This document shows, piece by piece, positions 6,031 to 59,180 of a stretch of DNA of 64,000 bases; position 1 is the first letter of the stretch; the number at the start of each line of letters is the position of its first letter. The DNA lies in assembly GCA_009746045.1 (NCBI GenBank), contig RPFO01000448.1, positions 2,641,509-2,705,508 of the forward strand, given 5' to 3'. Under the pieces are notes generated by a model. It ran no database searches, had not been told where the DNA came from, and saw only the letters and a list, made by a program, of their open reading frames with translations. The position numbers and the translations under genes are program-made. The DNA is from Mesostigma viride (Eukaryota; Streptophyta; Mesostigmatophyceae; Mesostigmatales; Mesostigmataceae).

Positions 6031-6103
6031 TAATTAATTAATTAATTAGACTCGTGCTCCCGTTGGGGAGTCACGGAGCATTAACCCCGATGGATGGATG
6101 GAT
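6031..6103 (-). mobile_element. Retroelement 3' end module with stem-loop and TTAA tail
   Basis: On the minus strand this reads a few CCAT units, CGGGGTTAATGCTC, a bulged stem-loop (CGTG, bulge A, CTCCC, loop CAAC, GGGAG, CACG), AGTC, and then a (TTAA)-type tail. The same module occurs at 8428-8503, 25780-25850 and 27178-27236. It is consistent with the 3' terminus of a non-LTR element or a SINE that uses its machinery. Confidence 0.55.
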
Positions 6104-6391
6104 GGGTGCAAACATTCCTACCGGTCTAATCTATCTACATTGGCTACATACTACATCTAAAAGAATAAGTAAGGAGTATATGTACATTACAAAGGGAAAA
6201 AGAAAAAAGAGAAAGAAAGAAAGAAAAAAGAAAAGAAAAGGTAAAAGGTAGTAATACGAACAATGATAAATAAAAACAAAGTAAAGAATATTAATAATAA
6301 CAAAAACAAAAATGGAATAAAGGAAGGTCAATGCTGGGATGTGGTGAGGCACAGGTGATGTTGGAGTACTAGTGAACTAGATGACGGCCGC

Positions 6392-6528
6392 ATGAGACAA
6401 CTATTCCTGGACGCAATTAAGGTGGTCCAACATCGTGTGAAGACTACAGCATGGTGTTCGATCGATCCAGCTATGTTTACCCCAATTGATAAATTTGTAG
6501 ATATGCATTTGGGGATGTAGTTGTCTCA
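6392..6528. mobile_element. TGAGACAACTA-ended short element
   Basis: About 137 bp bounded by a perfect 11-bp inverted repeat, TGAGACAACTA on the left and TAGTTGTCTCA on the right. The left end continues TTCCTGGACGC as in the other family members. The interior is unlike the 5.5-kb copy, so only the ends are shared. Confidence 0.5.
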
Positions 6529-6537
6529 CTTAATACG

Positions 6538-7262
6538 TGGATCTTTCTAGCCTTGAAGCCAGGACCGCCCACACCGAGGCCCTGGCCACGCATGTCCCAG
6601 ATATCGCGGCGCAGACGACCACCATCGATCCCAACCCAGCCCACCCGGCAGGACGCTGGCAACCTCCCGCCACTCTCCTGATAATGCGGACCTGCTGGGT
6701 CGGCAACCGCCTCGACCACGGACGCCATCATCACGAGACTCCAGGTGATGGAGGCACACCGCCGGCTAGGCGGAGGAATTAACGGGAGGCCACCGATCGC
6801 GCCCGCCGCGAGTGCCTAGTGGTGCTGCGTCGTTTCCCCCAGGAGCCTGGGGAGATCGATCATCGACGTCAACCACTCTTGTGGACGAGCTCAAGAACAA
6901 GCTTATTACCCTCCTGGGACTGGCGGGTGAGCTAGAGCTGCCCGTGGGCACCGCCGGTGCCCACGGCCTTCGGACCCACACATGTGCACACAGGACAAGG
7001 CGGCTCAGTCCCCCACCATGCAGACATACGTCCTGCATGCTCACCTTCAGGTCCATCTCGAGAGCGGCGGTTGCTCTCTCGTCGCAAGAGGTTGCACGAC
7101 CTCCCCTGGACGCTGGACGACGACCTGACTCCCGCTCAGCAGCAGCAGCGACGCGACCTGTGACCGGAATGCCTCCGACACAAGCAAGACTACGGCGCAA
7201 CAAGCCCAACTTAGGTCTATTGGAGGGGCGGGGACTTGATGATCAACCACAAGATGCGGGAG
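6538..7262 (+). pseudogene. Non-LTR retrotransposon ORF1 remnant
   Basis: Frameshifted coding debris that reads, across frames, LEARTAHTEALATHVPDIAAQ (coiled-coil-like), then WTLDDDLTPAQQQQRRDL, and near the end VYWRGGDLMINHK. The same three blocks occur in order in the better-preserved copy at 46734-47780. The combination of a coiled coil, an LxDDLTPAQ segment and a terminal YWRGGxLY block resembles the C-terminal half of L1-type ORF1 RNA-binding proteins. Stops and frameshifts make it non-functional. Confidence 0.6.
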
Positions 7263-7685
7263 CCCCCTCAGTGGCCCCACGGGCTAGATTAGCCAATTCC
7301 TAGAGTAGCCTGTAACGGTGTAGCTAGCCCTTGTAGCTTATAGGCCTTGTAGCCGGCACGGTAGCCAAAATGTGCATGCATTAATTATGATCGTGCACGG
7401 TAGGCGGCCTAGCCTTGCCTCTACAGGGCTCCCGTGTAGCCAGTTGCTCTAGTTGCGCGGGCCCCACCGCCAGCCTAATCTATATGCCCCGCCCCGCCGG
7501 CCATGCATGGTGCACGTTCGCTCACGCCACCACAACAGCCACCATGCAATGCTCACACGGGCCGGTCTTATTGCACCTACAGTGAGTTATGAAGTGAGAC
7601 AACTATATGCCAGCCGGATCGTTTCGCGTACGGGGATCCGACTGCACATGCATGCACGTACCTGTGGCATGCCACTGGCATGACT

Positions 7686-8290
7686 GCATGAGGGCCGACG
7701 AGATTCTGGCAGCGGTCGTGCCGGAAACTCGCGCCGCCGATATTGGTGTCATGCAGCTCTTCCGGGACATCTATAATTGCGTTCTGCTGTACGTCGTCGC
7801 AACCGCCCCCAGCGGCCTGGCAACACAGCTTTCGCACGATGCTGGACAAAAACAAAGGGTTGCCCGCCGACCCCGGCAACTACTACAGAGGTTTGTGCAT
7901 CCAAAGTGCCCCCTCAACTGAGCTTCTCATGCCGCCGCTCATCCTGAACCGCCCTGGACGGCCGGCCACCTCAGGGAGACTCAGCTCCGCTTCCGTCCAG
8001 GCCGCAACACAGCACAAGCGCTCTTCGCTACTCGCCGCCTCGTGGAAGAACTGCACTGCCTCCAGCCTGGTGAGTCCCCTCTGCACCTTGTGCTGGTGGA
8101 CTTCATCAAAGCCTTCGATTCGGTTTTCATGGTCTGCGCTGTGGGACATCCTCGCTCTGTTGCGGATCCCCACCCCCCTTATTGCTGTCATCCGCAACGT
8201 GTATGAAGGGTCCACCACCTCCGTGCGCACTTCCTACGGGACCACGCCACCATTGACGCCCTTTACAGAAGGGTGTGTGGCAGGGCTGTG
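7686..8290 (+). pseudogene. Non-LTR reverse transcriptase fragment (N-terminal RT blocks)
   Basis: Broken frames give, in order, LPADPGNYYRGLCIQS (the PxxYRxI block at the start of LINE RTs), QLRFRPGRNTAQALFATRRLVEEL (the GFRPGRST block) and LHLVLVDFIKAFDSV at about 8090-8125, which is RT motif A with its catalytic Asp. Several frameshifts separate them. The fragment stops before the YADD block; a matching C-terminal portion lies at 21012-21300. No endonuclease domain was seen between the ORF1 remnant and this fragment. Confidence 0.75.
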
Positions 8291-8297
8291 TGCTGAT

Positions 8298-8345
8298 TAA
8301 ATTGTAACATATCTCCGTTGGGAGCTAGTACATGTAGCACATATC
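8298..8345 (-). mobile_element. Decayed LINE 3' stem-loop
   Basis: On the minus strand this reads ACATGTACTAG, CTCCCAACGGAG, ATATGT, a decayed form of the stem-loop at 23971-23995. It is in the opposite orientation to the RT fragment just upstream, so it belongs to another insertion. Confidence 0.35.
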
Positions 8346-8427
8346 CCTGAGAAGGGGCATATGGCTTTTAATTAATACATCATTAGAATAGAGTTGGCTT
8401 GATGTTGTAGATAGACCGGTAGGATTG

Positions 8428-8503
8428 TGTGTCCCCATCCATCCATCCACTATCGGGGATAATGCTCCGTGACTCCCCAACAGGAGCACGAGTCTAATTA
8501 AGG
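8428..8503 (+). mobile_element. Retroelement 3' end module
   Basis: Three CCAT units, then CTATCGGGGATAATGCTC, a stem-loop (CGTG, bulge A, CTCC, loop, GGAG, CACG), AGTC and a short TAATTAA tail. Same module as at 6031-6103, opposite orientation. Confidence 0.5.
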
Positions 8504-9874: not shown

Positions 9875-9878
9875 TTAA

Positions 9879-11577
9879 CCCCTAAATGGTCTGGCTGCCG
9901 ATTTTCCGCCTAAAACTGAGTTACAGCCGACACGTCGGCCCCTTCTCGGGGGACCAAATGCCGCGAAAACTATTGAGAATTAGGAAACGTTTAGCTGAGA
10001 AGATCGAAAGTTTATAATTTTCCTCACAGCATGGTACTAGGGTTTGCATACTTCTGACAAAGTTATAGAGGTGTTCTGGCCGGTCAAAGTACAAGGGGTC
10101 AGGGTACTTTTTCACGTAAAACGTGCATTCCGGAAAACGACGACCTGGCCATGGCGGCTTGCGCCCACGCATGGCATTTACGTTTTCGTTCGAATTTTCT
10201 GACCAAACTCAGGAAATTGATTTTATACGTCCTAAAGATGATACAGGCCAATTTTTGGTTCGCGGGAATGCCATTTGATAGGTGTCGGCAGCGTTCTTGC
10301 TGGAAAAAACTGCGATCAGGCCGGACGATAGAAACGTTGACAGCAATACCTTTCCGGCGTATTTTAAAGGATATATTGGTTTCTTTGTACTTTTTATGAT
10401 ACATGGTAGTCGTAAACGTGCAAGGGTGGCCAGAAATCGCCGAATCCAGCGACCATGCTGCACAACTTTGGTGTTCCGAAATGCGCCATTTTGCGGCCAC
10501 CGCCTGGGCCAAGGTAACGCCATCCATGCCTGGTAAAGCTTAATCATCGTTTTCCTATCGATGTTTGACGTTTATATATACGTTCTAGCTTGTGTAGCAC
10601 ATTCTTTTTGCATTATTCATGCTCTTTCTTGACCCTGGCCTGGCCCCTTTCTAAAACACCCTTCTTAGATGCTTCCCTCAGTCAGTTGACCTGCCACAGG
10701 GTGATGGTGATAAGTTTTAGAGGCTGTATGGGTTTGAATACCTCCATATATGTTTGTTATACATTTCCCACACACATATTGCATGAGTGTGAGGCAGTTG
10801 GCTGGTCTCTGTGGCATCATCAAGCATGTAACCGGTGAGTAGAAGCTTCCCATTGTCAGCATGTGCCACCAGGTGTGCTGGCCATCACCTGGCAAGCTAT
10901 AGCAGCTTAGGCCTAGTTTATCCTTACTAGGGCAAGCTGAAATAGGCTTAAAATCACTAGTTTGTTGGTGGCTGCCTCCTAGAATGCATGCCTTGCGTAG
11001 GGTATCCGTACCACGTTACCTACATGCATGGACAAGGTGGCACCTGCACATAGGTGCCATGTAAGGGCAGTGTGATGATGCAGTTATGTTTCCCCATCAT
11101 TGTGGAAGGGAAATGTATTGTGCGGCATGGTTGGGGGCCATATTAGTAGGTATTAGTAGGTAGTATGCCCACTCCTACCCCCTTGGTTGCTTTTTACCAA
11201 CGGTACCCCTATGGGCTGTATTGGGTGTAACTGCTGGTATACCCACCCAAATGATGACCCCAATGGCTCAAACTGTTCAGCAACTAATTGTTTATCATCC
11301 CTGAAGTGGTAGGTGCCTAGCTCTTACAACATAATTCAAAATGCACATTCTACCAAAAATGAAAACGCTCGTCTTGACCCCCCTGACTTTGACGGCAGTT
11401 ATACATGGCCTACCCTGCATATATGTAAGGTTGTGATATACCAACCCGAAGGGCAACTCATGGACATGCTTGGCCCCCAAGGACAGCCATTGGATATGGG
11501 TGGGTTGGATGGCATCTGGTTTGCAAAATTGTGAAGTTACAGCCGATGCATCGGCAGTATTTCTGCCCATTTAGGGG
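9879..11577 (-). mobile_element. piggyBac-like non-autonomous element, copy 1
   Basis: A 1699-bp element flanked by TTAA at 9875-9878 and 11578-11581. The left end is CCCCTAAATGGTCT and the right end is CCATTTAGGGG, an inverted repeat of 11 or more bases. Subterminal GCCGATGCATCGGC-type palindromes lie near both ends. TTAA target duplication with CCC/GGG ends is the hallmark of the piggyBac superfamily. No transposase frame is present; internal frames match only the second copy's. Copy 2 (15037-16725) is highly similar along its whole length in the opposite orientation; strand is assigned relative to that copy. Confidence 0.85.
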
Positions 11578-11581
11578 TTAA

Positions 11582-12182
11582 TACAAGAACGTACCATAAC
11601 GGGCATTTATTCGTGCCCAGGCGCACAAGAAAGGCCACCCTTTCATGGAGAGGTCGGGCGCGCATCGCGCAGGCCTAATGTTATCTTACCGAAAAATGAC
11701 GGGAAAGGTAAAGATAGCAGCTGGAATTTTTACGGCTTTAGAAACATCATTAAACTAGCTTCCATTAGGACCATCAAAACTGGCAACAATCAACAATCAC
11801 ACCTGCAGGCATCCATTTTACTTTATTCATCCCGACAGGAATTCAGGCCGGACCCCCCCTGCCGATGGTAAAGAAAAAGAGCCCGCGACATCATAGATCG
11901 CAACTATCCCATGGACCATAAATTAGAACCAGTAACTAATTTTCTCCAAGAATCGAGCATTTTTTCTGCTTTCCGCGAGCCAGATTTGTCACGTTTCGTC
12001 TAAAAGCAGTCGCCATGGCCACTTCCGCAAGGGGTGCGCGCACCGTGCACCCACTTTTCACGGTACGGAGGGTACCGCGGAATTTTTTTGGCGCGGAAAA
12101 TATTCGCCGCGCCGAGTCCCCTTAATTAATTCTTCGCTACTTCCTGCATGCCGGCAAGGGTACACCCCTCGCATTAGTAGTT
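11582..12182. other. Spacer without recognised features
   Basis: Sequence between the piggyBac-like element and the left Penelope flank. A TTAATTAATT lies at about 12122. No gene seen. Confidence 0.5.
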
Positions 12183-12900
12183 TTATATAAACAAGCCCCC
12201 CCCCCCAAGCTGACGCGGACGCGTCAGCTTTTCCCCCACCGCCGATTCTCCGCACCCGCACCCCCGCACCCCCCCACCCACCCAGATTAACGGACCCCCC
12301 CACACCCCGGCAGCCCGCAGTTCCCCTGCCGCAGTTCGTCGCTACTCGCGCAGTCCAGTCTCCTCGCGGAGGCGACCACGTGGCGTGCCCCCACGCCCCC
12401 AATTTCTGCTGTCCGCCAGTGTCCGCCTGGCCCCAATGTAAACGAACCCCCACAGAAGCACTCTCGCTCCAGTATGCTCGTGCAGCTCCTCATCACTCGG
12501 CCGTTCAGTTCACCCACTTTTCTCCCTTTCGCGGTAGCTTATATTTCCCTTTCCTTCTGTTCGCTGCTACTCTCATCCTCCCCCAAGCCCGAGGAGTCTT
12601 CCCGTCTCTTCGAACAGCTCAGCTCCGGGCACCCGACGACCCATTTTCGTCTCCAGTTCACTCGATTCGTCGCTACTCCTTTCCCTCCCCTAGCCCTTCT
12701 TCCCCTCATTCGCGGTAACTCAGTACGATTCAGTTCATGCAGTCTCTCTTTGTGCCCCTACGTGGCATTTTCGCTTAGTATTCCTTACCTCTCAGAGGCC
12801 GCTCCCCCCCCCCGCGCCACTTCCCCTGCGTTTGCCACCGGAACTACCCGCCCGCCCACTTCCCCTGCGTTTTTCACCGGAACTCCAAGCAAGAGTTGTT
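12183..12900 (+). repeat. Penelope-element flank repeat A, left copy
   Basis: About 718 bp repeated nearly identically and in the same orientation at 19783-20498. It starts with ACAAGC, a C-tract and a 24-bp palindrome centred on GACGCG/GACGCGTC, and ends with CCAAGCAAGAGTTG. It is pyrimidine-rich on the plus strand and has no convincing coding frame. The two copies bracket the retroelement, so this is probably part of a long-terminal-repeat-like unit or the host repeat it inserted into. Confidence 0.8.
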
Positions 12901-12902
12901 TC

Positions 12903-13472
12903 TCAACATATATACTAAAATTTGTAAAACGCAGCCTTGGCACAATTTTAGCTAACACTCTTTCGAACGGCTTTCGGCTCCAGCCACTCAGCGGCGCTAC
13001 TTACAGTCCGCTTGACGAATGAGCTGCGCGAAATTACATTGCGACCAATCACGAAAAGGTCAAACCACGGCGTCCATATTATCACGGTTTTTGGGCGTTA
13101 CATCCAGATGAGCCATTTGGCAGAGGTCCGTATGCCCAGATTGCGCCAGGAGCCAAACTCTGCGATGTCCTGTGTTTGCGAGCTCCAGATATAACCGTCG
13201 CAAACTTTTGGGCTGTTGGACCAAACTTTATCCTGAGGAACCAGTTACAAACGCGCAGAAAGCTCACACGTGGATTTTCCTCTGCTCCACCGCCTGTAAG
13301 CGATTTTCCCCTGCTGTCTGCGGGGTTGGCGAGGTCACCCATCCCCGCGCGCATCGCGCTCCCGTGCAGAGGTAGCAGTCAATCTGTACTGAGCTAGTTG
13401 AACTCCGCAAGACGATGTTCGCGAGCTCCGTCCACTGCGCGGTTGCGCAAGTTTTCCCTTTGTAGCAACATA
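12903..13472 (+). repeat. Penelope-element flank repeat B, left copy
   Basis: About 570 bp that recurs as an inverted copy at about 19215-19780, adjacent to the right repeat A. Shared landmarks are the outer ATATACTAAAATTTGTAAAAC, AGTCCGCTTGACGAATGAGC, and the inner GAGCTCCGTCCACTGCGCGG. Penelope-like elements often carry such pseudo-LTRs in direct or inverted orientation, and this fits an inverted pair. Inner limits are approximate because similarity fades. Confidence 0.75.
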
Positions 13473-13817
13473 CATACCACTCGCCCACACCCCGTAAGCA
13501 CCCGTCGCGTCATTTATGCCATTTACAACCGCAGGTACCCTCAGCGTATCTACTTTGGCCAGACGCAACGGGATGCCTGGACGCGTTTTCAGGAACATGT
13601 CCGAGCGGCACGCCGCCTTCATATTGGCCGCCCTGCCGCCAACGACGACACCCCCCTACATGGCGCCATAGCCCAATACGGGTGGTGGGATTGGCGAGTC
13701 GTCCCCTTGGAACATGTCCCCGGCACCTTTACCGGCGCCGTTTTTCGCAAAGCCGCAGGGCATCGGGAAACGTTTTGGAAACGAATGTTACATGCATTTC
13801 TGCCCCACGGTTTTTGA
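13398..13817 (+). CDS. GIY-YIG endonuclease domain of Penelope-like element
   Basis: A 139-codon frame. After a leader overlapping repeat B (first about 33 residues), the domain reads RRVIYAIYNRRYPQRIYFGQT, followed by TRFQEHVRAAR and WDWRVVPLEHV. The IYAIY and IYFGQT pair is a GIY-YIG signature with slight changes, and the Arg in TRFQEH sits where the catalytic Arg lies. In this superfamily the domain nicks DNA for target-primed reverse transcription. It lies upstream of the RT, as in the Chlamys-type N-terminal GIY-YIG elements of green algae, rather than downstream as in canonical Penelope. The frame ends 159 bp before the RT frame opens in a different phase, so one or more frameshifts have separated two domains that were probably one protein. 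The true start codon is uncertain. Confidence 0.75.
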   Translation: MNSARRCSRAPSTARLRKFSLCSNIHTTRPHPVSTRRVIYAIYNRRYPQRIYFGQTQRDAWTRFQEHVRAARRLHIGRPAANDDTPLHGAIAQYGWWDWRVVPLEHVPGTFTGAVFRKAAGHRETFWKRMLHAFLPHGF

Positions 13818-13975
13818 ATTGAAGGCAAGAGTTTCAAAGCTCGGTCTCGCCGCCGCCCGCCTCCCCTCCGTCCCCGCCCTCTTATGTTCATCCGTGCCTG
13901 GCGTCTGAAGCACAATCTCCACCCATATCGCCCCTATCCCCCAGCGTCACCCCGGCCCCTCCACCTTCCACACAT

Positions 13976-15036
13976 GTGTCCACCGATCCTTCCCTTTACT
14001 CCACCAGTCTCCGCTGCTTACGTCACATGTCTCGGCTTATGCAACGCGGCAACTTTCATGCATCCTATCTCGAAGCCTGCAGCTTGAAGAAGCTTACCAG
14101 CTTACACATTGCCGTCGGGTCGTGCTCCCCAGCTGATCTGCAAGTCCCCCGCTCCCATGCCACTAGTCTGCGAGGCCTTCTCTCACGTATCATTCGGCAC
14201 CGTGTCAATGGGAATGCAGATGCACTGCGTCCGCGCCGTTTGCTGATCTCACCTTTCATTCATGCTGCGATGGATGAGCTGTGTTTGCCACACATTCTGC
14301 ATTTGCCGCAAGTGCAGGCTGCGATGCCGCTCGTGGTGCGCCACACTTTCGGCACTCCCATTGCCGCCTGGCATTACTCTCCCACCTTGGGACAAATGGT
14401 TTTCAGCAACGGGAAGGTCAGCCGCGATACAACGCCCACCGCGCTGGCCACCATCTTGGCAGGGCCCTGCCCCTGCCAACAACAACGGTATTTCAAGTAC
14501 CTTGATCCCACCTCACAGCACGTCATGACCGCTGACCTCAGCATCCTGCCGAGCCACACGCTTGTAGACCTTTTTGCCAAAGGCACCAAGTTTCGGCCGT
14601 GGGTCCAGCGCACGTGTGCCAAAGAGGTGAATGCACTGCTCTCCACATCACTGCGCAAATTCTGCAATGCCATGTGCACGGACCTACAGCTTGCTCCCCT
14701 TGCCATGGAACCGTGGTTTCGCGCCGTCATTCACGAATGCAATGCACGTCTCACCAGGCTTGATTACCGTCTCCAGCAGGTCCACCGCACCACCTGGCTC
14801 AACACCACAGATAAAGCACTTCTTGACCACTTCAAGCAGGACTTTATCATCACGTGTGTTGACAAGAGTGCCCACAACTTTGCTTTCATATGCAAGAAGC
14901 ACTACCTTGCTACTTTGCAACACGAGTTGGCGTCCAGCCCTACCTATGTTCAGCGTGCACAGTCCACCGCCAGTATCACTGCTGCTCATCGGGCTTTTCT
15001 GCACAGCCAAAACATTTTTGCTCGGGCATTCCTTAA
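13976..15036 (+). pseudogene. Penelope-like reverse transcriptase, N-terminal part (interrupted)
   Basis: Open frame of about 353 codons that is cut by the piggyBac-like element right after AFL. It contains the block CPCQQQRYFKYLDPTSQHVMTADLSIL, a Cys-x-Cys followed by His-Val-x-T-x-D that I associate with N-terminal GIY-YIG Penelope elements and possibly a metal-binding site. It also contains CVDKSAHNFAFICKKHY, the conserved DK...Y block ahead of the Penelope RT fingers. Codon phase continues exactly into 16730-17990 on the other side of the insertion, so the two parts were one uninterrupted 774-codon frame before the element landed. Confidence 0.8.
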
Positions 15037-16725
15037 CCCCTAAATGGTCTGAGATCCTGCCGATAAATCGGCTGGATCTTCACAATTTTGCAAACCAGAT
15101 GCCATCCAACCTACCCATATCCAATGGCTGTCCTTGGGGGCCAAGCATGTCCATGAGTTGCCCTTCGGGTTGGTATATCACAACCTCACATATATGCAGG
15201 GTAGGCCATGTTTAACTGCCGTCAAAGTCAGGGGGGTCAAGACGCGCGTTTTCATTTTTGGTAGAATGTGCATTTTGAATTATGTTATAAGACCTAGGCA
15301 CCTACCACTTCAGGGATGATAAACAATTAGTTTCTGAACAGTTTGAGCCATTGGGGTCATCATTTGGGTGGGTATACCAGCAGTTACACCCAGTACAGCC
15401 CATAGGGGTACCGTTGGTAAAAAGCAACCAAGGGAGTAGGGGTGGGCATACTACCTCCTAATATGGCCACTAACCATGCCAAACAATACATTTCCCTTCC
15501 ACAATGATGGGGAAACATAACTGCATCATCACACTGCCCTTACATGGCACCTATGTGCAGGTGCCACCTTGTCCATGCACGTAGGTAACGTGGTACGGAC
15601 ACCCTACGCAAGGCATGCATTCTAGGAGGCAGCCACCAACAAACTAGTGGTGTTGAGCCTATTTCAGCCTGCCCTAGCAAGGATAAACTAGGCCTAAGCT
15701 GATATAGCTTGCCAGGTGATGGCCAGCACACCTGGTGGCACATGCTGTCAATGGGAAGCTTTTACTCACCAGTTACGTGCTTGATGATGCCACAGAGACC
15801 AGCCAACTGCCTCACACTCATGCAATATGTGTATGGGAAATGTATAACAAACATATATGGAGGTATTCAAACCCATACAGCCTCTAAAACTTATCACCAT
15901 CACCCTGTGGCAGGTCAACTGACTGAGGGAAGCATCTAAGAAGGGTGTTTTAGAAAGGGGCCAGGCCAGGGTCAAGAAAGAGCATGAATAGTGCAAAAAG
16001 AATGTGCTACACTAGCTAGAACGTATATATAAACGTCAAACATCGATAGGAAAACGATGCTTAAGCTTTACCAGGCATGGATGGCGTTACCTTGGCCCAG
16101 GCGGTGGCCGCAAAATGGCGCATTTCGGCACACTAAAGTTGTGCAGCATGGTCGCTGGATTCGGCGATTTCTGGCCACCCTTGCACGTTTACGACTAATA
16201 TGTATCATAAAAAGTACAAAGAAACCAATATATCCTTTAAAATACGCCGGAAATGTATTGCTGTCAACGTTTCTATCGTCCGGCCTGATCGCAGTTTTTT
16301 CCAGCAAGAACGCTGCCGACACCTATCAAATGGCATTCCCGCGAACCAAAAATTGGCCTGTATGATCTTTAGGACGTTTAAAATCAATATCCTAAATTTG
16401 GCCAGAAAATTCGAACGCAAACGTAAATGCCATGCGTGGGCGCAAGCCGCCATGGCCAGGTCGTCGTTTTCCGGAATGCACGTTGTACGTGAAAAAGTAC
16501 CCTGACCCCTTGTACTTTGACCGGCCAGAACACCTCTATAACTTTGTCAAAAGTATGCAAACCCTAGTACCATGCTGTGAAGAATTTTATAAACTTTCGA
16601 TCTTCTCAGCTAAACTTTTCCTAATTCTCAATAGATTTCGCGGCATCTGGTCCCCCGAGAAGGGGCCGATGCATCGGCTGGAACTCGATTTTTGGCGGAA
16701 AATCGGCAGCAAGACCATTTAGGGG
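15037..16725 (+). mobile_element. piggyBac-like non-autonomous element, copy 2, inserted in the RT gene
   Basis: A 1689-bp element between TTAA at 15033-15036 and TTAA at 16726-16729. Left end CCCCTAAATGGTCT, right end AGACCATTTAGGGG, a perfect 14-bp inverted repeat. Near-identical but inverted relative to copy 1. No transposase is encoded. The insertion breaks the Penelope RT frame inside a Leu-Lys pair, so it is younger than the retroelement. Confidence 0.88.
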
Positions 16726-16729
16726 TTAA

Positions 16730-17990
16730 GCGGCAGCGACGCGCCACCACCACTACGTTCCCATATCTGTATCTCACTCTTAAGCTGCACAAAACTCCTG
16801 TTGCTTTGCGCACCATTGCTGCGTCGCATTCAGCCCCACTGATGCCTCTCTCGAAACTCATCTGCCATGCTTTGAATGCTCTTCTCCCCGAAGCCAATGC
16901 ATTATGGGTGGAGGTGCTGTCGAATGCCGGGTATGAATGCGCTGGTAGTTGGATCGTCATAGACTCAGCCCAAGTACGCCTACGCCTTGCCGCCCTTAGC
17001 CGTTCTAAGACAGCAGCAGAGAAACGTATACCTATGCCCATAGCCACCTATGATTTCACCACTCTATATACCACACTAGATTTGCACGATTTGAAAGCTC
17101 GTTTAGATAGCCTCCTTACTCGTCTGTATGCACGTAGGCCTCACGGGCGCAACCACCTGCACGTGCGTGTTTCTCAGACCAAGCCCACGGCAACGTGGCT
17201 CTCAGGGATCGCGGCAGGTGCTATCGTGCGGGATGGTTATAATTATATTATCACGAAGGCTGACCTTGTCCATTGGATCTCTTATCTTGTTGATAACACC
17301 TTCATCTGTTTTGCGGGCAATGTATACCAACAAGCTATCGGCATCCCTATGGGCACTAACTGTGCCGGGCTCCTTGCAAACCTCTATCTATACACTTATG
17401 AGCTTGCATTCATGGAGAATCTCATTGCCTCAAACGATGATGTTCTCATCAGGCGTTTTATCCATACATGTCGATACATTGATGATGTCATCGCTTTCGA
17501 CAACCCTGATTTCGCAACCCATTTGTATATCACCGCTGGTCTGCCTGGCATCTACCCGCAAGCGTCCCTCACATTAAAGCTCACGTCGGAGGATACTCAT
17601 TGCAATTACCTCGATCTTAACATTACCCATAACAAGAAGGGCTGGCGTACGGCTGTCTATGATAAGCGCAAGGATCCTAAATACCAGCAAATTCCTTTTA
17701 TTCGTTACCCCGATATTCACAGTCTCCTTTCCCACACAGCAAAATATGGTGTTGTTCTTTCTCAGTTACATCGTTTTTCCCGTCTTTGTTCTTATCGTGT
17801 TGATTTCATCACGACTCTTGTTGAACTCTTGCAGCGTTTATTGGTCAAAGACTATGACCGAGCCATTATGCTCCGTCAAGTCCGATGTTTTTTGCAACGT
17901 CACCCACATCTGTTCGGTGCTGCCCCTTGGCACAAGCTCTACAAACAGGTCGTGGACCGGCTGGATCGCATAGTATCTCCGCACATCTGA
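16730..17990 (+). pseudogene. Penelope-like reverse transcriptase, C-terminal catalytic part
   Basis: About 419 codons ending at 17990. RT motifs are intact: PYLYLTLKLHKTP (fingers), ATYDFTTLYTTL with the motif A Asp at 17052-17054, AIGIPMGTNCAGLLANLYLY (motif B), and CRYIDDVIAF with the catalytic pair encoded from 17481. The IPMGTNCA and YIDD forms are typical of Penelope-like rather than LINE RTs. A thumb-like region follows to HKLYKQVVDRLDRIVSPHI. A reading from a Met inside the transposon (16692) would make this piece openable on its own, but that Met belongs to the inserted element. Confidence 0.85.
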
Positions 17991-18399
17991 ACCCTGTGAT
18001 GCCAGATCTCCTTTGCGGCCGTTCCGAGCTTGGCACTGGATTCGTTGTCCACATCGTCGCGTCGCTGCCGCAACACGATGTTTTCTGGCATCCGCGGGCT
18101 TTTGGTTCCCGCCGCACATTTGAAAGTGCTGTCCTCCGGCTTTTTGCCTTTGCACCGTGTGCAGTTCTTGGACGTTTGGAATCATGGCATGGCTAACGTG
18201 ACTAGCTAGACCTTTTCAGTGGTTTTCCATTTGCGGGTATTTCCTCGTAAATGGTGGGAGAGCGATCGCAGCAATGGTGCTCACCACTAGACACTCCCGG
18301 CCACTGAGTTAGGCTAGAAACACACGCCCTGATCAAGCATGCTGTTTCCGGCCCCACCGTCTAGGTCATCTAGTCGCTCCACACGTAAGCCAGCCATAA

Positions 18400-18545
18400 T
18401 TTCAATGCACAAGGATACACATTTCCATCACCATTCATCTTCATCATCCTGAACGACTCGAAAACGCGGAAAAGATAACGGCAGGCTCGAGCTACCATGG
18501 TCCGGATTCTCCCGATTTCTGGCCTGCGCTGGTTGTCTCTTTGAT
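18400..18545 (-). mobile_element. GAGACAAC-family dispersed repeat
   Basis: Carries the end GATTTCTGGCCTGCGCTGGTTGTCTC preceded by CTCGAGCTACCATGGTCCGG and a tract homologous to 26800-26900 (in inverted orientation). On the minus strand it starts GAGACAACCAGCGCAGGCCA. Confidence 0.55.
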
Positions 18546-18569
18546 ACATATTCTGTAAGTTCCACACAG

Positions 18570-19196
18570 GTTGGTTGCGTAGACTTCACGCGCCAAGGCA
18601 CATTGCATCATTAGCGTGGTAACTGCAAGGTTGCGGGTTCGAATCTATGGGTTGTGCCCAAGTTTTGGGTTTTTTTCTTCACCCTTTTGACAACCTCCAT
18701 GAATCTTGTGGTGGAAAACCTAAAGCTAGCGCGCGCTCCTTGGCGAGGCTAGCGCCACCTGGCCCTTGGCGGCGGTACGTGGTGACTCACTTCTCCCTAG
18801 CCGGGGCTCCCTGGCCGGGGACCGGCCACAAAAAGTACATGCTCTAATGTCGCGGGCGAAGCCCGCAAAACTTGTTTTACATCTAAAGGACAAGTTTTGC
18901 GGGCTTCGCCCGCGACATTAGAGCTTGTACTTTTTGTGGCCGGTCCCCGGCCAGGGAGCCCCGGCTAGGGAGAAGTGAGTCACCACGTACCTCCGTCGAG
19001 AGCCAAGTGGCGCTAGTCCCGCCAAGGAGCGCGCGCTAGCTTTAAAGTTTAGACCACAAGATTCATGGAATTTGGCATAAGGGTGAAGGAAAAAAATCCG
19101 AAAATTCAATGGAAGGCCCATGAAGGTTTGAACCCGGCATGCCACGAACCCTCGTCTGATGAGGTGTGCCTTGGCGCCTGAAGTGTACGTAACCAA
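18570..19196. repeat. Large imperfect palindrome (arms about 300 bp)
   Basis: Arms at about 18570-18874 and 18891-19196 around a 16-base spacer (18875-18890). The innermost 40 bases are perfect: CTAATGTCGCGGGCGAAGCC against its complement. Outer parts have diverged, for example around the tRNA-like GGTTCGAATC (left, about 18636) and its counterpart in the right arm. It could form a very long hairpin RNA or a cruciform. It lies between the RT frame and the right flank repeat B. Confidence 0.8.
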
Positions 19197-19214
19197 TTTT
19201 CGTAGAAGTTGCAC

Positions 19215-19780
19215 AATATGTACATTGCTAAAAAGGGACAAACTGCGCAACCGCGCAGTGGACGGAGCTCGCGAACTACTTGCGGAGTTCAAGCTCCAGA
19301 TTGACTGCTACCCCTGCACGGGAGCGCGATGCGCGCGGGGTTTAGTGACCTCGCCAAACCCGCAGACAGCAGGGGGAAATCGCCTACAGGCGGTGGAGCA
19401 GAGGAAAATCCACGTGTGAGCTTCCTGCGCGTTTGTAACTGGTTCGGGAGAACAAAGTTTGGTCCAACAGCCCAAAAGTTTGCGACGGTTATATCTGGAG
19501 CTCGCGAACACAGGAAATCGCAGAGTTTTCTAGTAGGAGCCATCTGGGCATACGGACCTCTGCCAAATGGCTCATCTGGATGTAACGCACAAAAACCCTC
19601 ATAATATGGACGCCGTGGTTTGACCTTTTCGTGATTGGTCGAAATGCAATTCCGCGCAGCTCATTCGTCAAGCGGACTGTAAGTCGCGCCGCTGAGTGGC
19701 TGGAGCCGAAAGCCGTTCGAAAGAGTGTTAGCTAAAATTGTGCCAGGGCTGCGTTTTACAAATTTTAGTATATATGTTGA
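19215..19780 (-). repeat. Penelope-element flank repeat B, right inverted copy
   Basis: Inverted counterpart of 12903-13472, reaching TTTTAGTATATATGTTGA at the outer edge. It is directly adjacent to the right copy of repeat A. Confidence 0.75.
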
Positions 19781-19782
19781 TA

Positions 19783-20498
19783 TAACAAGCCCCCCCCCCC
19801 AAGCTGACGCGGACGCGTCAGCTTTTCCCCCACCGCCGATTCTCCGCACCCGCACCCCCGCACCCCCCCACCCACCCAGATTAACGGACCCCCCCACACC
19901 CCGGCAGCCCGCAGTTCCCCTGCCGCAGTTCGTCGCTACTCGCGCAGTCCAGTCTCCTCGCGGAGGCGACCACGTGGCGTGCCCCCACGCCCCCAATTTC
20001 TGCTGTCCGCCAGTGTCCGCCTGGCCCCAATGTAAACGAACCCCCACAGAAGCACTCTCGCTCCAGTATGCTCGTGCAGCTCCTCATCACTCGGCCGTTC
20101 AGTTCACCCACTTTTCTCCCTTTCGCGGTAGCTTATATTTCCCTTTCCTTCTGTTCGCTGCTACTCTCATCCTCCCCCAAGCCCGAGGAGTCTTCCCGCC
20201 TCTTCGAACAGCTCAGCTCCGGGCACCCCACGACCCATTTTCGTCTCCAGTTCACTCGATTCGTCGCTACTCCTTTCCCTCCCCTAGCCCTTCTTCCCCT
20301 CATTCGCGGTAACTCAGTACGATTCAGTTCAGTCTCTCTTTGTGCCCCTACGTGGCATTTTCGCTTAGTATTCCTTACCTCTCAGATCGAGCCCCCCCCC
20401 CCCCCCCGCGCCACTTCCCCTGCGTTTGCCACCGGAACTACCCGCCCCGCGCCACTTCCCCTGCGTTTTTCACCGGAACTCCAAGCAAGAGTTGTTTT
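19783..20498 (+). repeat. Penelope-element flank repeat A, right copy
   Basis: Same orientation and nearly the same sequence as 12183-12900, with a few small indels, for example a longer C-tract at 20392-20407 and loss of CATG near 20330. Followed by TTTTACATCTAAAGGATAAG, which also occurs as the spacer of the 18.9-kb palindrome. Confidence 0.8.
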
Positions 20499-20519
20499 TT
20501 ACATCTAAAGGATAAGCTT

Positions 20520-20945
20520 CTGTAAAATGTTCTGGCTGAAAACCAGGAAACAAACAAAAGAAAATTAATTAATTAACTCCGGGGGCTGAGGACTGGACTA
20601 AACAAACAAACAAACAGAGTTAAATTAATGAACTCCTGTGGGCTCTGGGTATCACTGACCTCCACTGACTCTAGCCTATGGCCGCCGAAGGGGGGCCGCC
20701 GGGCCGGATTGCCGGCCGAATCGGGGACGGCGTGTACGATATCTACCAAACAAACAAAAGAAAGTTATTAATTAAATAAGTACCCATGTGCCTTGAACGG
20801 CTGCAGGACAAACAAACAAACAAATGGTTTTGATTAAATAATAAAGAACCCGGAACTCTAACTGGCTCCCAACAAACAATCCAGGGTTATTCGTCATGCA
20901 AATACGGCGAAAATTGACCCCTAATAACAAACTACTAATGCGAGG
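20520..20945. repeat. ACAAACAAA / TTAATTAA simple-repeat cluster
   Basis: Four loosely similar modules, each with (ACAA)n followed by TTAATTAA or a variant, at about 20545, 20600, 20750 and 20810. The pattern suggests several nested retroelement tails. No coding frame. Confidence 0.4.
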
Positions 20946-24022: not shown

Positions 24023-24792
24023 GCTAGCTAGCTAGCCTGTGCAGTTCATGGCATGTCATGTTGTGAATGCATCTATGGCATGCCTGTGATTATCTTAAAC
24101 TCCCCTCAAAGGGCCAGGGTCAGCAGATTTTGAGAAATGATCCATATTGCATTGTATATCTTTTGAACCCCATCATCTGCACCGTACCCCCTTGGGGGGG
24201 GGTGCTATTTATAGAAGCTGTGGGGCATAATAGATATGTGACCAATGATGACATGACCCAAAAGTTATTTGATATAATTTAAGCATCCTTGGTTCCAAGG
24301 GTGGGCCAGAAAATACATGTTATTTGGCTAGATACTCTCATATACTTACTAAGATACCCATACTCAGTCCGTTCTGGTGATTCCAGTTGACACACTTGAT
24401 GTCGGCGGTGGAGGTGGAGGCGGCAGTGCCGCAGTGGAGGTGGAGGCGAGGAGGGTGGAGGAGGAGGTGACGGTGGTGGAAAGGTGAGGTCCGAGCTTGA
24501 GCAGTAGCCAGCCAGCCTCAGTTGCTGCCACATCTGCACTGCGTCGGAGGGGAGTCACGTGCTGCTCTAGGGCCTCCTCGATGTAGCGGAGTGTGGGTGC
24601 GGAAATGGATGGAGCCCAGATCTCACCATCAGAGCTCATGAGGAGGGAGCATGCATGAGAGTGATGATGTGTTGGAGGCACCTGGGGCCGGTTGCACCCG
24701 AACAAAGCTTGGGGTTCGTTCCGGTGCCGTCCGGAATCATGGATGAGGCGGTTGATGGTGTGGAGATGGAGGCACGTAAAGCGAGGCCGGCG

Positions 24793-25787
24793 TCCATCCA
24801 TCCATCCATCCATCCATCCATCCATCCATCCATCCATCCATCCATCCATCCATCCATCCATCCATCCATCCATCCATCCATCCATCCATCCATCCATCCA
24901 TCCATCCATCCATCCATCCATCTGATCCATCCATCCATCCATCCATCCATCCATCCATCCATCCATCCATCCATCCATCCATCCATCCATCCATCCATCC
25001 ATCCATCCATCCATCCATCCATCCATCCATCCATCCATCCATCCATCCATCCATCCATCCATCCATCCATCCATCCATCCATCCATCCATCCATCCATCC
25101 ATCCATCCATCCATCCATCCATCCATCCATCCATCCATCCATCCATCCATCCATCCATCCATCCATCCATCCATCCATCCATCCATCCATCCATCCATCC
25201 ATCCATCCATCCATCCATCCATCCATCCATCCATCCATCCATCCATCCATCCATCCATCCATCCATCCATCCATCCATCCATCCATCCATCCATCCATCC
25301 ATCCATCCATCCATCCATCCATCCATCCATCCATCCATCCATCCATCCATCCATCCATCCATCCATCCATCCATCCATCCATCCATCCATCCATCCATCC
25401 ATCCATCCATCCATCCATCCATCCATCCATCCATCCATCCATCCATCCATCCATCCATCCATCCATCCATCCATCCATCCATCCATCCATCCATCCATCC
25501 ATCCATCCATCCATCCATCCATCCATCCATCCATCCATCCATCCATCCATCCATCCATCCATCCATCCATCCATCCATCCATCCATCCATCCATCCATCC
25601 ATCCATCCATCCATCCATCCATCCATCCATCCATCCATCCATCCATCCATCCATCCATCCATCCATCCATCCATCCATCCATCCATCCATCCATCCATCC
25701 ATCCATCCATCCATCCATCCATCCATCCATCCATCCATCCATCCATCCATCCATCCATCCATCCATCCATCCATCCATCCATCCATC
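24793..25787. repeat. CCAT tetranucleotide array, about 249 units
   Basis: A 995-bp array broken only once (CTGA at 24922-24925). Each frame is open, giving repeated IHPS on plus and MDGW on minus; these are not genes. The right end runs straight into the retroelement 3' module (CGGGGCTAATGCTCC), where other copies carry only three or so CCAT units. Confidence 0.97.
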
Positions 25788-25850
25788 GGGGCTAATGCTC
25801 CGTGACTCCCCAACGGCCCGAGCACGAAAAGGACCATTTTAATTAATTAA
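25788..25850 (+). mobile_element. Retroelement 3' end module after the CCAT array
   Basis: CGGGGCTAATGCTCCGTGAC, the stem-loop with a two-base interruption, GAGCACGA and a TTAATTAATTAA tail. Same module as at 6031, 8428 and 27178. Confidence 0.55.
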
Positions 25851-49953: not shown

Positions 49954-52900
49954 TCATGGCACGGCCACTTTGAGCTGCTTGAGAAGTTTCCGCGTCATCA
50001 ACAGGTTGGCATCCTCGGGCGATAGCCCATGGGCCGCCGATGCCGCCCCGCTGCTTCCTTCCGGCCCCGCGCCCTGGGCCCTAACCTCCTCCCCTCGAGC
50101 CGCCCCTTCCCCAGCGGCCCCGCGATTGCTACCACCATCCGCACCGCCAGCACCGGTCATCGCCTCGTCCCCGCCGCTGCCATCGGCGCCCGCTGCCGGG
50201 ATCAAAATCGTGGGCAGATCCTTGCGCTTGACGCGGAGAGGGCTGAGCGGGCTGAGCGGGCTGAGCGCGTTCGCATGCGGGCTGAGTGGGTGTGCGCTCG
50301 GAGAGAAAGGGCCGTGCCCGTTGCCATACGCGCTGGCGCTCCCTGGGCTGAACGCGCCACCGTTGGGCCGGTATGCAGGGTACTCCCCGCCCCCGCCGCC
50401 AGAATAAGGGCTCGAACCGGGGGTCCTATCAGGGGACAGCTGCGGACGCGAGGGCGCAAAGGGGCTATTGCTGAACGGGCTCGCCGCAAACGGGCTGTTG
50501 CTGATCGGGCTGAACGGGCTAGTCGGCCCATCACTCCCCGTGGGGCTGAACATGCGGGGCGTCGACCGGCCGCTCCTCGGCGTGGTTGCCCCGCTGATTC
50601 GCCGCGACCGTCGCCGCTGCAGCTTGGTCCGCTCGGTCTCCTGGTGCTTCGCCGCGGCCATTGAGCGGAGCTTCGCTGCGATCTCGGGGGAGCTCTCGAG
50701 CAGCAGCATGAGGTCATCCTTGCGGATCTTGATCGCACGTACATCGGAAACGGCCTTGACCGTCTCGCTGTGGTGGCGCCCGCCGAGCACGAGCGCGATC
50801 TCGCCGACAAAGAAGCCCTCGTTGTTGTCGTTCGCGCCATAGTTCTGGCGCAGCACGGGCGTGTGGTCCTCCCCCTCCCCGTAGTCGTCGTCGTTCCAGT
50901 CCTCGTCGTCCACGTCCTCAAAATCGTCGTCGTCGTCCATGAACCTCGAGCTGTGCACCTCGCGCCTCTCCACGATTGTCTCAAACACCCGCCCTTCGTC
51001 GACCTGCCCCCCCCCTCGCCACCCCCCTCCCCTCCCCCCCCTCCCCTGCTCGGCGGCGATGGCCTCCTCGAAGCTCCTCGTGGCCCGAGCCTTGGAGCGC
51101 GGCGTGAGCGGCTCGCCCAGCTGCTCCAGGTGGTGCTCCAGGGTCATCCCCTTGGGCACGCTGAAGCTGCTCGGGCGGTCGTTCTCGATGATCATGTCCG
51201 TAATCCCGTTGAACACAAAGTAGGCCTCCATCGCCTCGCTGCCCTGCCGCGCGATCGTGTCCCCCGCCTTGAACGAGACCTCCTCGATGTCGCTCTGGAG
51301 GGCCAGGGAGTCCATCATCATGCCGCTCCCCTTGGAAGTACTGGGGATCTCCGGGAGGCCGAACTCAAGCTCCATCTGCAGCCGGCGGATCAGCTTCTTG
51401 CGCAGCTTGTCCCTCAGGAGCAGCTTTTTGTGCGCCTGCTCCTGGAGCCGCTTCTTCACGTCGGGCTCCCGCTCGAGCAGCTCGCGGAGGGCGCGCTCGG
51501 AGAGGACGAGCACCTGGCAGTCGGTGACCGCGCACACGGACATGGAGCGGTACGTCTGCGTTAGGATCATCGCGGTCTCGCCGATGAAGCTCCCCTTGGA
51601 GACGCGCGACAGCTCCATCTGGCCGCTCTTCTCCTTCTTCTGCGTCGACGAGAAGAAGACGTCCTCGATGTACACCGAGACGACGCCCGAGTTGATGAAG
51701 AAGCACTCTGTCGCCTCCTCCCCTTGCTGGAAGATGACGTCGCCGGCCTTATACGTACGCTGGGGCAGGCTGATGTCGCAGAACATCTCGGTGAGCGACA
51801 TGCTCGAGATGGCGTTGGAGACGTCCTTGTCGGAGACCTCCACGGGCTTTGGGGCGGTTGTTTTGGAATAGATAGTCATGCGCAGGTTCTGGTTGTCGGT
51901 CGTCCACGAGTCGGTCATGACCTCGACGAGCGAGAGGCGCTTGCGTGGGTCCTTGTGCAGCATGCCCAGCAGCAGCTGCTCCACGTCCTTGCTGATCGCA
52001 TGGCCCGAGGGGAACTCGAGCGGCTTCTCGCGTATGTTCTCGTACAGTTTGTGCATCGAGGGGCCCACAAAGGGGAGCCGCGCGAACAGGAGAGAGTAGA
52101 GAGTGACGCCGAGCGCCCAGACGTCGGCGCCGCGACCGTGGTACGTCCCAGGGACAAGCATCTCGGGGGCCATGAAGGACGGGGTCCCTGCGGTTTGAGA
52201 GACCAGGTCGCCGTCGACGAGGTCGTCGGCACAAATGTGGGCCGCGCCGAAATCGGCAATCTTGACAGTTCCGTCCTTGGTCTTGAGCAGGTTCTCGGGC
52301 TTGATGTCGCGGTGGAGGATGCGCTGGTGGTGGAGGTAGTAGAGGCCGTAGCAGATGTCGTGAAAGATGCGGCGCGCGTCCGCCTCGTGCATCGGCTGCT
52401 GCGGCTTTTTGGGGTTGACCAGCGACCCGCCCTCGGCGTACTCGAGCACCATGAGCACCGCGTCCGGCATGTCCGCCGAGTCGATCACGTGGTACAGCCG
52501 GATGATGTTGCGGTGGTCCAGCTTCTTCAGGATGGCGATCTCGCGCATCGGGCCGTCCAGCGCGGCCTCGCTCTCGGGCTTCCGGCGGGAAGGCAGACGG
52601 CGGAACTTGCGGCGCTCTACCTTCTTGATCACGCACGGACGATTGCCGTCCATGAGGTTCAGGCACAGCTTCGCGACGCCCGACGTGCCTCGCCCAAGCG
52701 TCTTGATGACCAGGTATTTCCCGGTCTTGGACTGGAATTCTCTCCCGGATCGCAGGCCCTGGTCGTCCATGCTGATATCGGACTCGGAGTCGGCATCCGA
52801 ACTTCTGCGATGCTCGTGCATGTACGTGTAGGGGTCGGCCACGTGAAGCTCCGACGCAGCCGTCTCCGAGAAAGGATGCCGTGGGGGCTTCGCACTCCCA

Positions 52901-53100
52901 GGCGTCCCCACAGCGGGAGACCCGTTGCCATCCAGGCGACCGTTGTCCGCTACCGCGCCCTCCGGAACGGAGGCTAGCCCTCCATCTCCATTCATTAGCC
53001 CTCTAAGTTTCTCGCTCCCTGCAAAGGGAGAGCCCACATCCATATCAACACCGGCGACCTCCCTCCCTACGGCACACATATCCCCCGGCATGGTGCCCAA
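49954..53100 (-). CDS. CAMKK-like protein kinase with two C-terminal cyclic-nucleotide-binding domains
   Basis: A single 1048-residue frame without introns. Kinase domain at residues 130-399: glycine loop GRGTSG (136-141), Lys159 in CVIKK, HRDIKPEN (263-270), DFG (283-285), TAGTPSFMAPE activation segment. MREIAILKKLDHRNIIRLY and the Pro-rich insert before HEADARRIFHDI recall CAMKK/SnAK-type upstream kinases. Then a cNMP domain (about 445-545) with FIGETAMI and Arg518 in the phosphate-binding position, and a basic linker. A second cNMP domain follows (KAGDTIARQGSEAMEAYFVFNG ... FVGEIALVLGG); it is split by an insert of over 100 residues with a strongly acidic run and has His where the phosphate-binding Arg should be. 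The tail is Ser/Pro-rich with NSPF/SPLSPL repeats. Likely a cytosolic cyclic-nucleotide- or ligand-regulated kinase; PKG has the reverse domain order. Start at the first Met; Met4 and Met8 are alternatives. Confidence 0.88.
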   Translation of the reverse strand: MGTMPGDMCAVGREVAGVDMDVGSPFAGSEKLRGLMNGDGGLASVPEGAVADNGRLDGNGSPAVGTPGSAKPPRHPFSETAASELHVADPYTYMHEHRRSSDADSESDISMDDQGLRSGREFQSKTGKYLVIKTLGRGTSGVAKLCLNLMDGNRPCVIKKVERRKFRRLPSRRKPESEAALDGPMREIAILKKLDHRNIIRLYHVIDSADMPDAVLMVLEYAEGGSLVNPKKPQQPMHEADARRIFHDICYGLYYLHHQRILHRDIKPENLLKTKDGTVKIADFGAAHICADDLVDGDLVSQTAGTPSFMAPEMLVPGTYHGRGADVWALGVTLYSLLFARLPFVGPSMHKLYENIREKPLEFPSGHAISKDVEQLLLGMLHKDPRKRLSLVEVMTDSWTTDNQNLRMTIYSKTTAPKPVEVSDKDVSNAISSMSLTEMFCDISLPQRTYKAGDVIFQQGEEATECFFINSGVVSVYIEDVFFSSTQKKEKSGQMELSRVSKGSFIGETAMILTQTYRSMSVCAVTDCQVLVLSERALRELLEREPDVKKRLQEQAHKKLLLRDKLRKKLIRRLQMELEFGLPEIPSTSKGSGMMMDSLALQSDIEEVSFKAGDTIARQGSEAMEAYFVFNGITDMIIENDRPSSFSVPKGMTLEHHLEQLGEPLTPRSKARATRSFEEAIAAEQGRGGRGGGWRGGGQVDEGRVFETIVERREVHSSRFMDDDDDFEDVDDEDWNDDDYGEGEDHTPVLRQNYGANDNNEGFFVGEIALVLGGRHHSETVKAVSDVRAIKIRKDDLMLLLESSPEIAAKLRSMAAAKHQETERTKLQRRRSRRISGATTPRSGRSTPRMFSPTGSDGPTSPFSPISNSPFAASPFSNSPFAPSRPQLSPDRTPGSSPYSGGGGGEYPAYRPNGGAFSPGSASAYGNGHGPFSPSAHPLSPHANALSPLSPLSPLRVKRKDLPTILIPAAGADGSGGDEAMTGAGGADGGSNRGAAGEGAARGEEVRAQGAGPEGSSGAASAAHGLSPEDANLLMTRKLLKQLKVAVP

Positions 53101-54725
53101 TTAAAGAGTTAATTAAAGCGGCAACCGACACTCCATCATCCTACCCATGCAAACGTACACATCCATGCCATAACTAAAGCTTTGTCGATACTGCGTCATG
53201 AGCATTGCCTGTTAGCGTATTACAAAGGCAAATTCCCTCCTCAGCGTGGCTAAAACCCTACGAGATGCGGTTATGCCGTTCTTCGGGCATGCGCATTGTC
53301 TCGCTTCCCGCGACCCGCGGTAAACACTGCGAAGGCTCAGATTCGGGCACCACTACAGTATGGTCAACGCAAAGAACGCCTGGACGTAGCCCTGGCGTGG
53401 CGTCCTCGTACGGTCTTCCTGATTGCGAGCCGCTGCTTGGGTGTCTTGAGTTCAAACGCCTTGTTTCATCCACTCACCTCGAGTTGCGAAAATTGTCAGC
53501 CAGTCTGCAAGAAGACGGGTTAGAAATTGCGTAGATCTATTGCGACTTTGGCCCCGCATGGCGCACAATGCCGGCAGGTGCCTGTCTCATGTCTGTCGTT
53601 ACCTCCGTGGTATGTCAGAAGATTTCCGGGTAAATGGGTATTTTTTATTAACCAATAGGAATATCGTTAGGTTAAGAGGTACCACGTATCGACCGAGTGG
53701 TATGTCAGAAGATTTACGGGGGCTGTGCCTACATTCCTATATCCCACTGGTAGATACTAATGCCCTGATGCCTCGGTAAAGCGCCTTATTTATCTTTTTA
53801 TATTTAGTATGCAACGGTAGTCTCGCTGACGCCACGTCGACGTCCGGGCTGTGGACACCACCACAACACGTGTCGATCGGTGGCATGCCCAGGCCCTGAT
53901 ACGGTCGTGATGTCCTCCAGAATTGCAGTTTGGCCATCGTGGAGACAGCCAAGCACGTGCGCGCTGCACGCAGCGCGACTGCAGGCACTGCATCCGCGTC
54001 TTTGCCAATACGCCGCACTTAGAAACGACTTTATAGAGTAGCCAGTTTGGGGGGGGGGACTTTTTAAAGGCAAAAATACGAGGATGATTGCGCAGACAGC
54101 GCGTGTTGCTCAGTTTGCCGCAAGCCTTGGATATCCTTCCCGGTCCAGCCGGGTGGTCGCCAGATCTGTACCTCCTGCGCGCCGAGCAGTGTGTGATGGC
54201 CCATTCCCACAGCGTGTTGCCCTTTGTCCAGGACGCCGGCAATTTTTTCTGCACCTAGCTTTAGCAGCCTCTACTACCATGTCTTCATCCGCGCCAGCGT
54301 CTGCCGCATCGGCCTCCATCCAGCCTGACCGGCAGCGAGCGATGCGAGACACCCGGCAAGGGATGGACCTGTTTACCCAGGTAATTGCCCATATGTTGGT
54401 CAGGCTACATCCACGGTTCGACGGGGGCGATGTGGCGGGCTTCTTTCCCAGGGCAACGCTTTCCTTGCTGGCCACGAGCACAGCTAGTTTTACAGGCATA
54501 CGTCACTATACATGTCAGTATATAAACAGCATGTATGTCAGCATATAACAGTAGTAGCATAGCCATATGTCACTCTGCGTTGGTTGTCTCCTTGATATGT
54601 CATTCTGTAGAACTTAAGCGTGCTGCACTGCATTACTTGTTGCACAGAAGACAGGAATACCTCAGGCATGGCACCATCGCCCATTTTCTGCACCCCTCCG
54701 GCAGTCCATACACGCAAAAACATAA
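53101..54725. other. Non-coding stretch upstream of the kinase gene
   Basis: Presumably holds the kinase promoter. GGTATGTCAGAAGATTT occurs twice, at about 53609 and 53699. A GTTGGTTGTCTCCTTGATA end of the GAGACAAC family lies at 54579. No gene is called; a 109-codon frame at 53205-53534 has no recognised domain. Confidence 0.4.
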
Positions 54726-54730
54726 TCACA

Positions 54731-57700: not shown

Positions 57701-57803
57701 CACACAACCCACAACACACAACACACAACACACAACACACAACACACAACACACAACACACAACACACAACACACAACACACAACACACAACACACAACA
57801 CAC
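54731..57803. repeat. ACACAAC heptamer minisatellite with higher-order copies
   Basis: About 3.07 kb of ACACAAC units with point variants (ACACGAC, GCACAAC, CCACAAC) and occasional AACCCTTAACCAAC. Rare variants recur at about 904-927 bp: AACCCTTAACCAACAAC at 56241 and 57146, CACATCACAC at 56337 and 57257, CACCACACACGACGC at 56482 and 57408, CAACGCACAACGCAC at 55987 and 56891. The long CVVCCVL and HNTQHTT frames are artefacts. Confidence 0.95.
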
Positions 57804-57824
57804 ATGCATGTTTCACTAACACAT

Positions 57825-57970
57825 TGAGTTAGGTTAAATAGTGCCGGAACCTTTTGCCCACTCGGCCGAATTAACTTGGGTGCTCGGAAGTGGTTATTCC
57901 GGGCAAAATAGTGTGACGGACCGAATTGCCTCAGTGGGCAAAAGGTTCCGGCACTATTTAACCTTACTCA
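57825..57970. mobile_element. Short TIR element between two minisatellites
   Basis: 38-bp terminal inverted repeats (57825-57862 and 57933-57970) with one mismatch; the core is AATAGTGCCGGAACCTTTTG and its complement. The 70-base centre is unique. Flanks share ATT if the element is read as GAG...CTC, a possible 3-bp target duplication. Non-coding, MITE-like. Confidence 0.65.
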
Positions 57971-57986
57971 TTGTCTGGTGTTCTCA

Positions 57987-59160: not shown

Positions 59161-59180
59161 CTAATTAACCCAACCCTACC

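Follow-up and report, generated by a model that had tools for sequence, protein, structure and literature searches.

Among Penelope-like elements (PLEs), those of the Chlamys type are reportedly permuted, with a GIY-YIG endonuclease in front of the reverse transcriptase (RT) (Craig et al. 2021). A hammerhead motif has been reported in the terminal region of some PLEs and is not required of all. The Chlamys-type group is named in PMC12477816, and for the canonical Penelope/Poseidon elements PMC11167929 gives a C-terminal position of the endonuclease. In the Penelope families of the rotifer Adineta vaga, inverted terminal repeats, palindromes and internally deleted copies have been described, and the same families are reported to contain in-frame stops as well as secondary insertions (PMC3846280). 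According to that source, a tail-to-tail order of copies is what is expected from self-priming on a sense template.

The hallmarks given for piggyBac transposons are the target TTAA and terminal inverted repeats (TIRs) of generally 12–19 bp that carry a CC[C/T]T motif (PMC2872659). Duplication of TTAA is common to piggyBac and Kolobok, and the termini of Kolobok are stated to be 5'-RR...YY-3' (PMC9587614). A relevant example of the piggyBac type is the coral MITE family III, the sequence of which starts with CCCCTC (PMC2872659).

The locus described here lies in a 64-kb stretch of DNA that was analysed as a whole (the window), and what it presents is ordinary transposon nesting: one mobile element jumped into another. 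In our reading, to which we assign a probability of about 0.88, a non-autonomous piggyBac-like transposon inserted at a TTAA into the RT gene of a retroelement that looks Penelope-like and broke the RT frame. Nested insertions show in which order families of elements were active, and they yield clean empty-site sequences. In the present case the ends of a transposon family, found twice in the 64 kb, are fixed and one copy of the retroelement can be recognized as broken, without change to any general picture.

The transposon and its target site

The transposon, to which no strand is assigned, occupies positions 15037–16725 (1,689 bp) and lies between two copies of TTAA, the left one at 15033–15036 and the right one at 16726–16729, which form its target-site duplication. 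The repeat CCCCTAAATGGTCT is present at both ends as a perfect inverted match of 14 bp. These coordinates, and the arithmetic based on them, had been given correctly in the preliminary description of the locus. A second copy on the minus strand, at 9875–11581 (1,707 bp including its TTAAs), aligns with the first over the full length, from TTAA to TTAA, with 1,630 matches, 67 mismatches and one 10-bp gap, or 96% identity in the aligned bases. Its own TIRs match each other at 12 of 14 bases, and a TTAA target-site duplication is found at both transposon copies in the window.

As a control on the TIRs, all 2,073 pairs of TTAA in the window that are spaced 100–4,000 bases apart were taken, and the inner 14 bases of each pair were compared as inverted sequences. 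All 14 bases matched in three pairs, and 12 of 14 matched in a single pair, which is the copy at 9875–11581. The two other pairs with 14/14 matches (6042–8501 and 57834–57961) are the ends of different inverted repeats, unlike in sequence, so that in a window this rich in repeats a 14-bp TIR match is by itself no unique finding. The boundaries of the transposon are settled by the second copy, which has the same ends; the presence of such ends in two copies, each at a different TTAA, is strong support for a mobile unit. When the 15-mer of the TIR was searched in viral contigs, 18 stretches matched. None of the 18 had an exact partner TIR in the DNA covered and none was similar to the element by blastn, and these matches are therefore taken as chance.

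Several other features of the window were recorded. The block at 6042–8501 lies between inverted repeats that agree at 48 of their first 50 bases, and its ORF fragments recall, by eye, a LINE reverse transcriptase; the one ORF of the block that was scanned (7692–8297) had no Pfam match at E 0.01. The stretch at 57834–57961 is a foldback of 128 bp with 29 matching terminal bases, and it adjoins long tandem repeats. Such long tandem repeats, at 24367–25839, 54526–59190 and 60461–62277, are open in several frames and so give rise to spurious long ORFs. A minus-strand ORF of 1,048 aa at 49957–53100, in which Pfam recognizes a protein kinase domain and then two cyclic-nucleotide-binding stretches, is likely a host gene. 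Neither a tRNA nor an Rfam family that reached its gathering score was found in the 64-kb window.

Assignment to a superfamily

All ORFs of at least 70 aa, nine from each of the two transposon copies, were scanned against Pfam, and none of these 18 gave a transposase match; 16 were without any match and two had chance-level matches under the cut-off (E 0.071 and 0.084). The longest ORF has 122 aa in the first copy (15037–16725) and 146 aa in the second, and some ORFs correspond between the copies. As no ORF gives a transposase match, the 1,689-bp element is non-autonomous as far as is visible.

Judged from its ends, the element is best labelled a non-autonomous piggyBac-like transposon. The termini are 5'-CC...GG-3', and the first bases are CCCCTA, so that CCCT begins at base 2. 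With respect to the terminal criterion for piggyBac (a TIR of 12–19 bp with CC[C/T]T), the TIR found here is 14 bp long and perfect, but it begins with CCCCT. One branch of Sola is TTAA-specific as well, and the element might derive from that branch or from Kolobok instead of piggyBac. We consider such an origin distinctly improbable: the element has no transposase by which its superfamily could be decided, and the TTAA duplication is shared by Kolobok, but the Kolobok termini (5'-RR, YY-3'; PMC9587614) were absent when both ends were read, and the start of coral MITE family III (CCCCTC; PMC2872659) resembles the CCCCTA seen here. The TTAA duplication and the piggyBac-like label proposed in the preliminary description are accordingly retained, the latter as the best label for TTAA combined with CC...GG as opposed to the RR...YY of Kolobok.

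The interrupted RT frame

If the transposon and one TTAA (1,693 bases) are removed, the flanks are in one phase and an open frame extends from 13823 to 17990, with 824 sense codons and a terminal TGA when counted from stop to stop. Upstream it is limited by TGA at 13820–13822, and the first ATG in frame is at 14027. The joined sequence contains no stop in the RT frame, as compared to 14, 37, 21, 35 and 58 stops in the other five frames; agreement of the flanks in phase would occur by chance alone in one case out of three. The 2,322 bases in phase that had been counted earlier do make 774 codons, the terminal stop included, and the frame is as stop-free as was claimed, but it opens 51 codons further upstream than had been indicated, at 13823.

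The insertion point is located just before the stretch FPYLYLTLKLHK in the RT gene. In-frame reading from the 5' part of the gene meets TAA at 15041–15043, in the left end of the transposon, and this stop prevents in-frame production of the RT core from the interrupted copy. The fact that exact removal of the element leaves the frame in phase would also be compatible with an intron, derived from an introner-like transposon, which is spliced out so that RT is still made. This is highly improbable in view of the TAA at 15041–15043, which is hit by the RT frame, and of the positions of possible donor sites: within 14930–15060, the GT closest upstream of the element is at 14973, and the one that follows, at 15047, is already past the stop. 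Use of the GT at 14973 as donor would lose codons. Exact splicing of the element with a GT donor is ruled out, as no GT is present between 14973 and 15047 in the region that was scanned (14930–15060).

In the nesting that we propose, the transposon separates two plus-strand segments of the RT gene. The 5' segment (13823–15036) consists of a proline-rich stretch and then the region preceding the RT core. It had no match in Pfam or NCBIfam, a single PHROGs match of unassigned function (E 0.1), and no relatives in the prokaryote contig collection. The 3' segment (16730–17990) runs from the RT core, with GIPMGTNCAGLLAN and RYIDD, to the stop codon, and most of its matches are to reverse transcriptases. 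The NCBIfam model for group II intron RT was found at E 6.8e-05, far under its curated cut-off, and two Drt (antiviral RT) models of NCBIfam at E 0.005–0.009, also far under their cut-offs. Among PDB sequences a defence RT (9yfd) matched at E 0.0068, the only other match being a tetratricopeptide protein at E 0.67, which is chance. An RT match was further obtained in PHROGs (E 0.028), as well as one to Pfam RVT_1 (E 0.14–0.16, under the cut-off). These matches are weak and stay under the curated cut-offs, but they agree on one stretch, and the presence of an RT domain in the 3' segment is thereby supported. No relatives of this segment were found in the viral or prokaryote contig collections.

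The motifs TYDFTTLYTTLDL, GIPMGTNCAGLLANLYL, RYIDD and YLDLNIT...VYDKRKD in the RT segment are, we assume, those of a Penelope-like RT, and the retroelement looks Penelope-like on these motifs. Of the Penelope RT gene in the preliminary description, the RT is thus backed by weak profile and PDB matches, whereas the Penelope part derives from the assumed motifs. Structure prediction of the RT segment without an alignment gave a mean pLDDT of 34 and was unusable. A search for the hammerhead ribozyme in 12000–20700 gave three matches at E up to 5, none of which was a hammerhead.

The putative endonuclease and the state of the retroelement

Ahead of RT, in a different frame, a plus-strand ORF at 13398–13817 that ends in TGA may encode an N-terminal endonuclease. 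Reading by eye gives VIYAIYN...IYFGQT...RFQEH...RETFW, motifs which we take to be those of a GIY-YIG endonuclease. Pfam yielded no GIY-YIG match for this ORF, the sole match being a chance-level one to Trp_halogenase, and nothing significant was found among PDB sequences. A structure prediction of the segment without an alignment was of low confidence (mean pLDDT 57); none of its 96 Foldseek matches fell at E ≤0.001, and no GIY-YIG protein was present among the 50 of these 96 matches that were listed.

The ORF is cut off by the TGA at 13815–13817 and has no ATG ahead of the putative domain. Past this TGA its frame is open to about 14084 and overlaps the RT frame. In the interrupted copy, endonuclease and RT cannot be demonstrated to form one continuous open protein. 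The breaks before RT may be older or younger than the insertion, or they may belong to a genuine layout with two ORFs or with an intron.

It is quite possible, at somewhat less than even odds, that the whole retroelement was already dead when hit, with its endonuclease cut off and an RT frame that had merely not decayed yet; this would be compatible with the nesting explanation. The TGA at 13815–13817, the TGA at 13820–13822 in the RT frame and the lack of an ATG before the putative endonuclease domain are in favour of it, whereas the RT frame itself is without a stop and the breaks could postdate the insertion or be due to an intron or two-ORF layout. The original statement that RT was intact when hit is consequently supported in part and overstated: it finds support in the RT frame, which was open and had no stop then, and none in the putative endonuclease ORF, with its TGA, its other frame and its missing ATG.

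Order of events

The order of nesting, with the retroelement before the transposon, is secure and agrees with what was first proposed, as the transposon sits inside pre-existing sequence. The further suggestion that the nesting dates the insertion is correct for this relative order, but it provides no age. The two transposon copies differ at 3.9% of their aligned bases. At 2% private change per copy, 1.5 stops are expected in 824 codons, and a frame without any would be met in roughly one case out of five; the open frame is thus no proof of youth, nor is it at odds with an age that corresponds to 2% change. Dating of the insertion by decay was rejected, zero stops being compatible with 2% private change.

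The probable course of events is as follows. A retroelement that looks Penelope-like, with a putative N-terminal GIY-YIG endonuclease followed by RT, was present first. A transposase made elsewhere, presumably that of a piggyBac element, then mobilised the non-autonomous piggyBac-like transposon, which was inserted into the RT gene by a cut-and-paste reaction that used one TTAA as target and duplicated it. Precise excision might still free the insertion site.

Repeats around the retroelement

The retroelement is surrounded by repeated blocks. A plus-strand block at 12182–12901 is repeated directly at 19777–20497 (plus strand; 97.7% identity over 726 columns), and a second one at 12896–13476 (plus strand), ahead of the putative endonuclease, is repeated inverted at 19217–19788 (minus strand; 91.4% over 583 columns). 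An imperfect palindrome without assigned strand at 18545–19222, the arms of which show 284 identities, 35 mismatches and 40 gap positions, is a candidate for the 3' ends of two retroelement copies arranged tail to tail. The stretch 18891–20496 is flanked by exact direct repeats of 16 bases, TTTTACATCTAAAGGA, at 18875–18890 and 20497–20512. The arrangement at this one locus suggests that 18891–20496 is a second, internally deleted copy of the retroelement. This copy would lie on the minus strand, placed tail to tail with the one that bears RT, and the block of 12182–12901 would be inverted in it.

Comparison with known systems

The transposon can be compared to the coral CMITEs, which as described in PMC2872659 also have a TTAA duplication, a TIR of 13–14 bp starting with CCC and no transposase, and which are likewise thought to be mobilised in trans. 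The difference is one of size, the coral elements being about 100 bp long and the present one 1.69 kb, with internal sequence to which no origin is assigned.

For the retroelement, the Penelope families of Adineta vaga resemble this locus in the inverted repeats, palindromes, in-frame stops, secondary insertions and deleted copies described for them in PMC3846280. In these families inverted junctions are most often head-to-head (PMC3846280), whereas the palindrome found here reads tail-to-tail.

The layout of the interrupted copy also brings the Chlamys-type PLEs to mind, with an RT that looks Penelope-type by its motifs and a putative GIY-YIG domain ahead of it; it differs from theirs in that the endonuclease is putative and is parted from RT by a stop and a change of frame. 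The locus might represent a variant of the permuted PLEs in ORF layout and integration outcome (N-terminal GIY-YIG in a separate frame from RT, tail-to-tail inverted copies with 5'-inverted blocks, and a target duplication of 16 bp), which we regard as unlikely. With respect to the canonical Penelope/Poseidon elements, the contrast lies in the position of the endonuclease, which is C-terminal in those elements as described in PMC11167929 and putatively N-terminal in the retroelement interrupted here.
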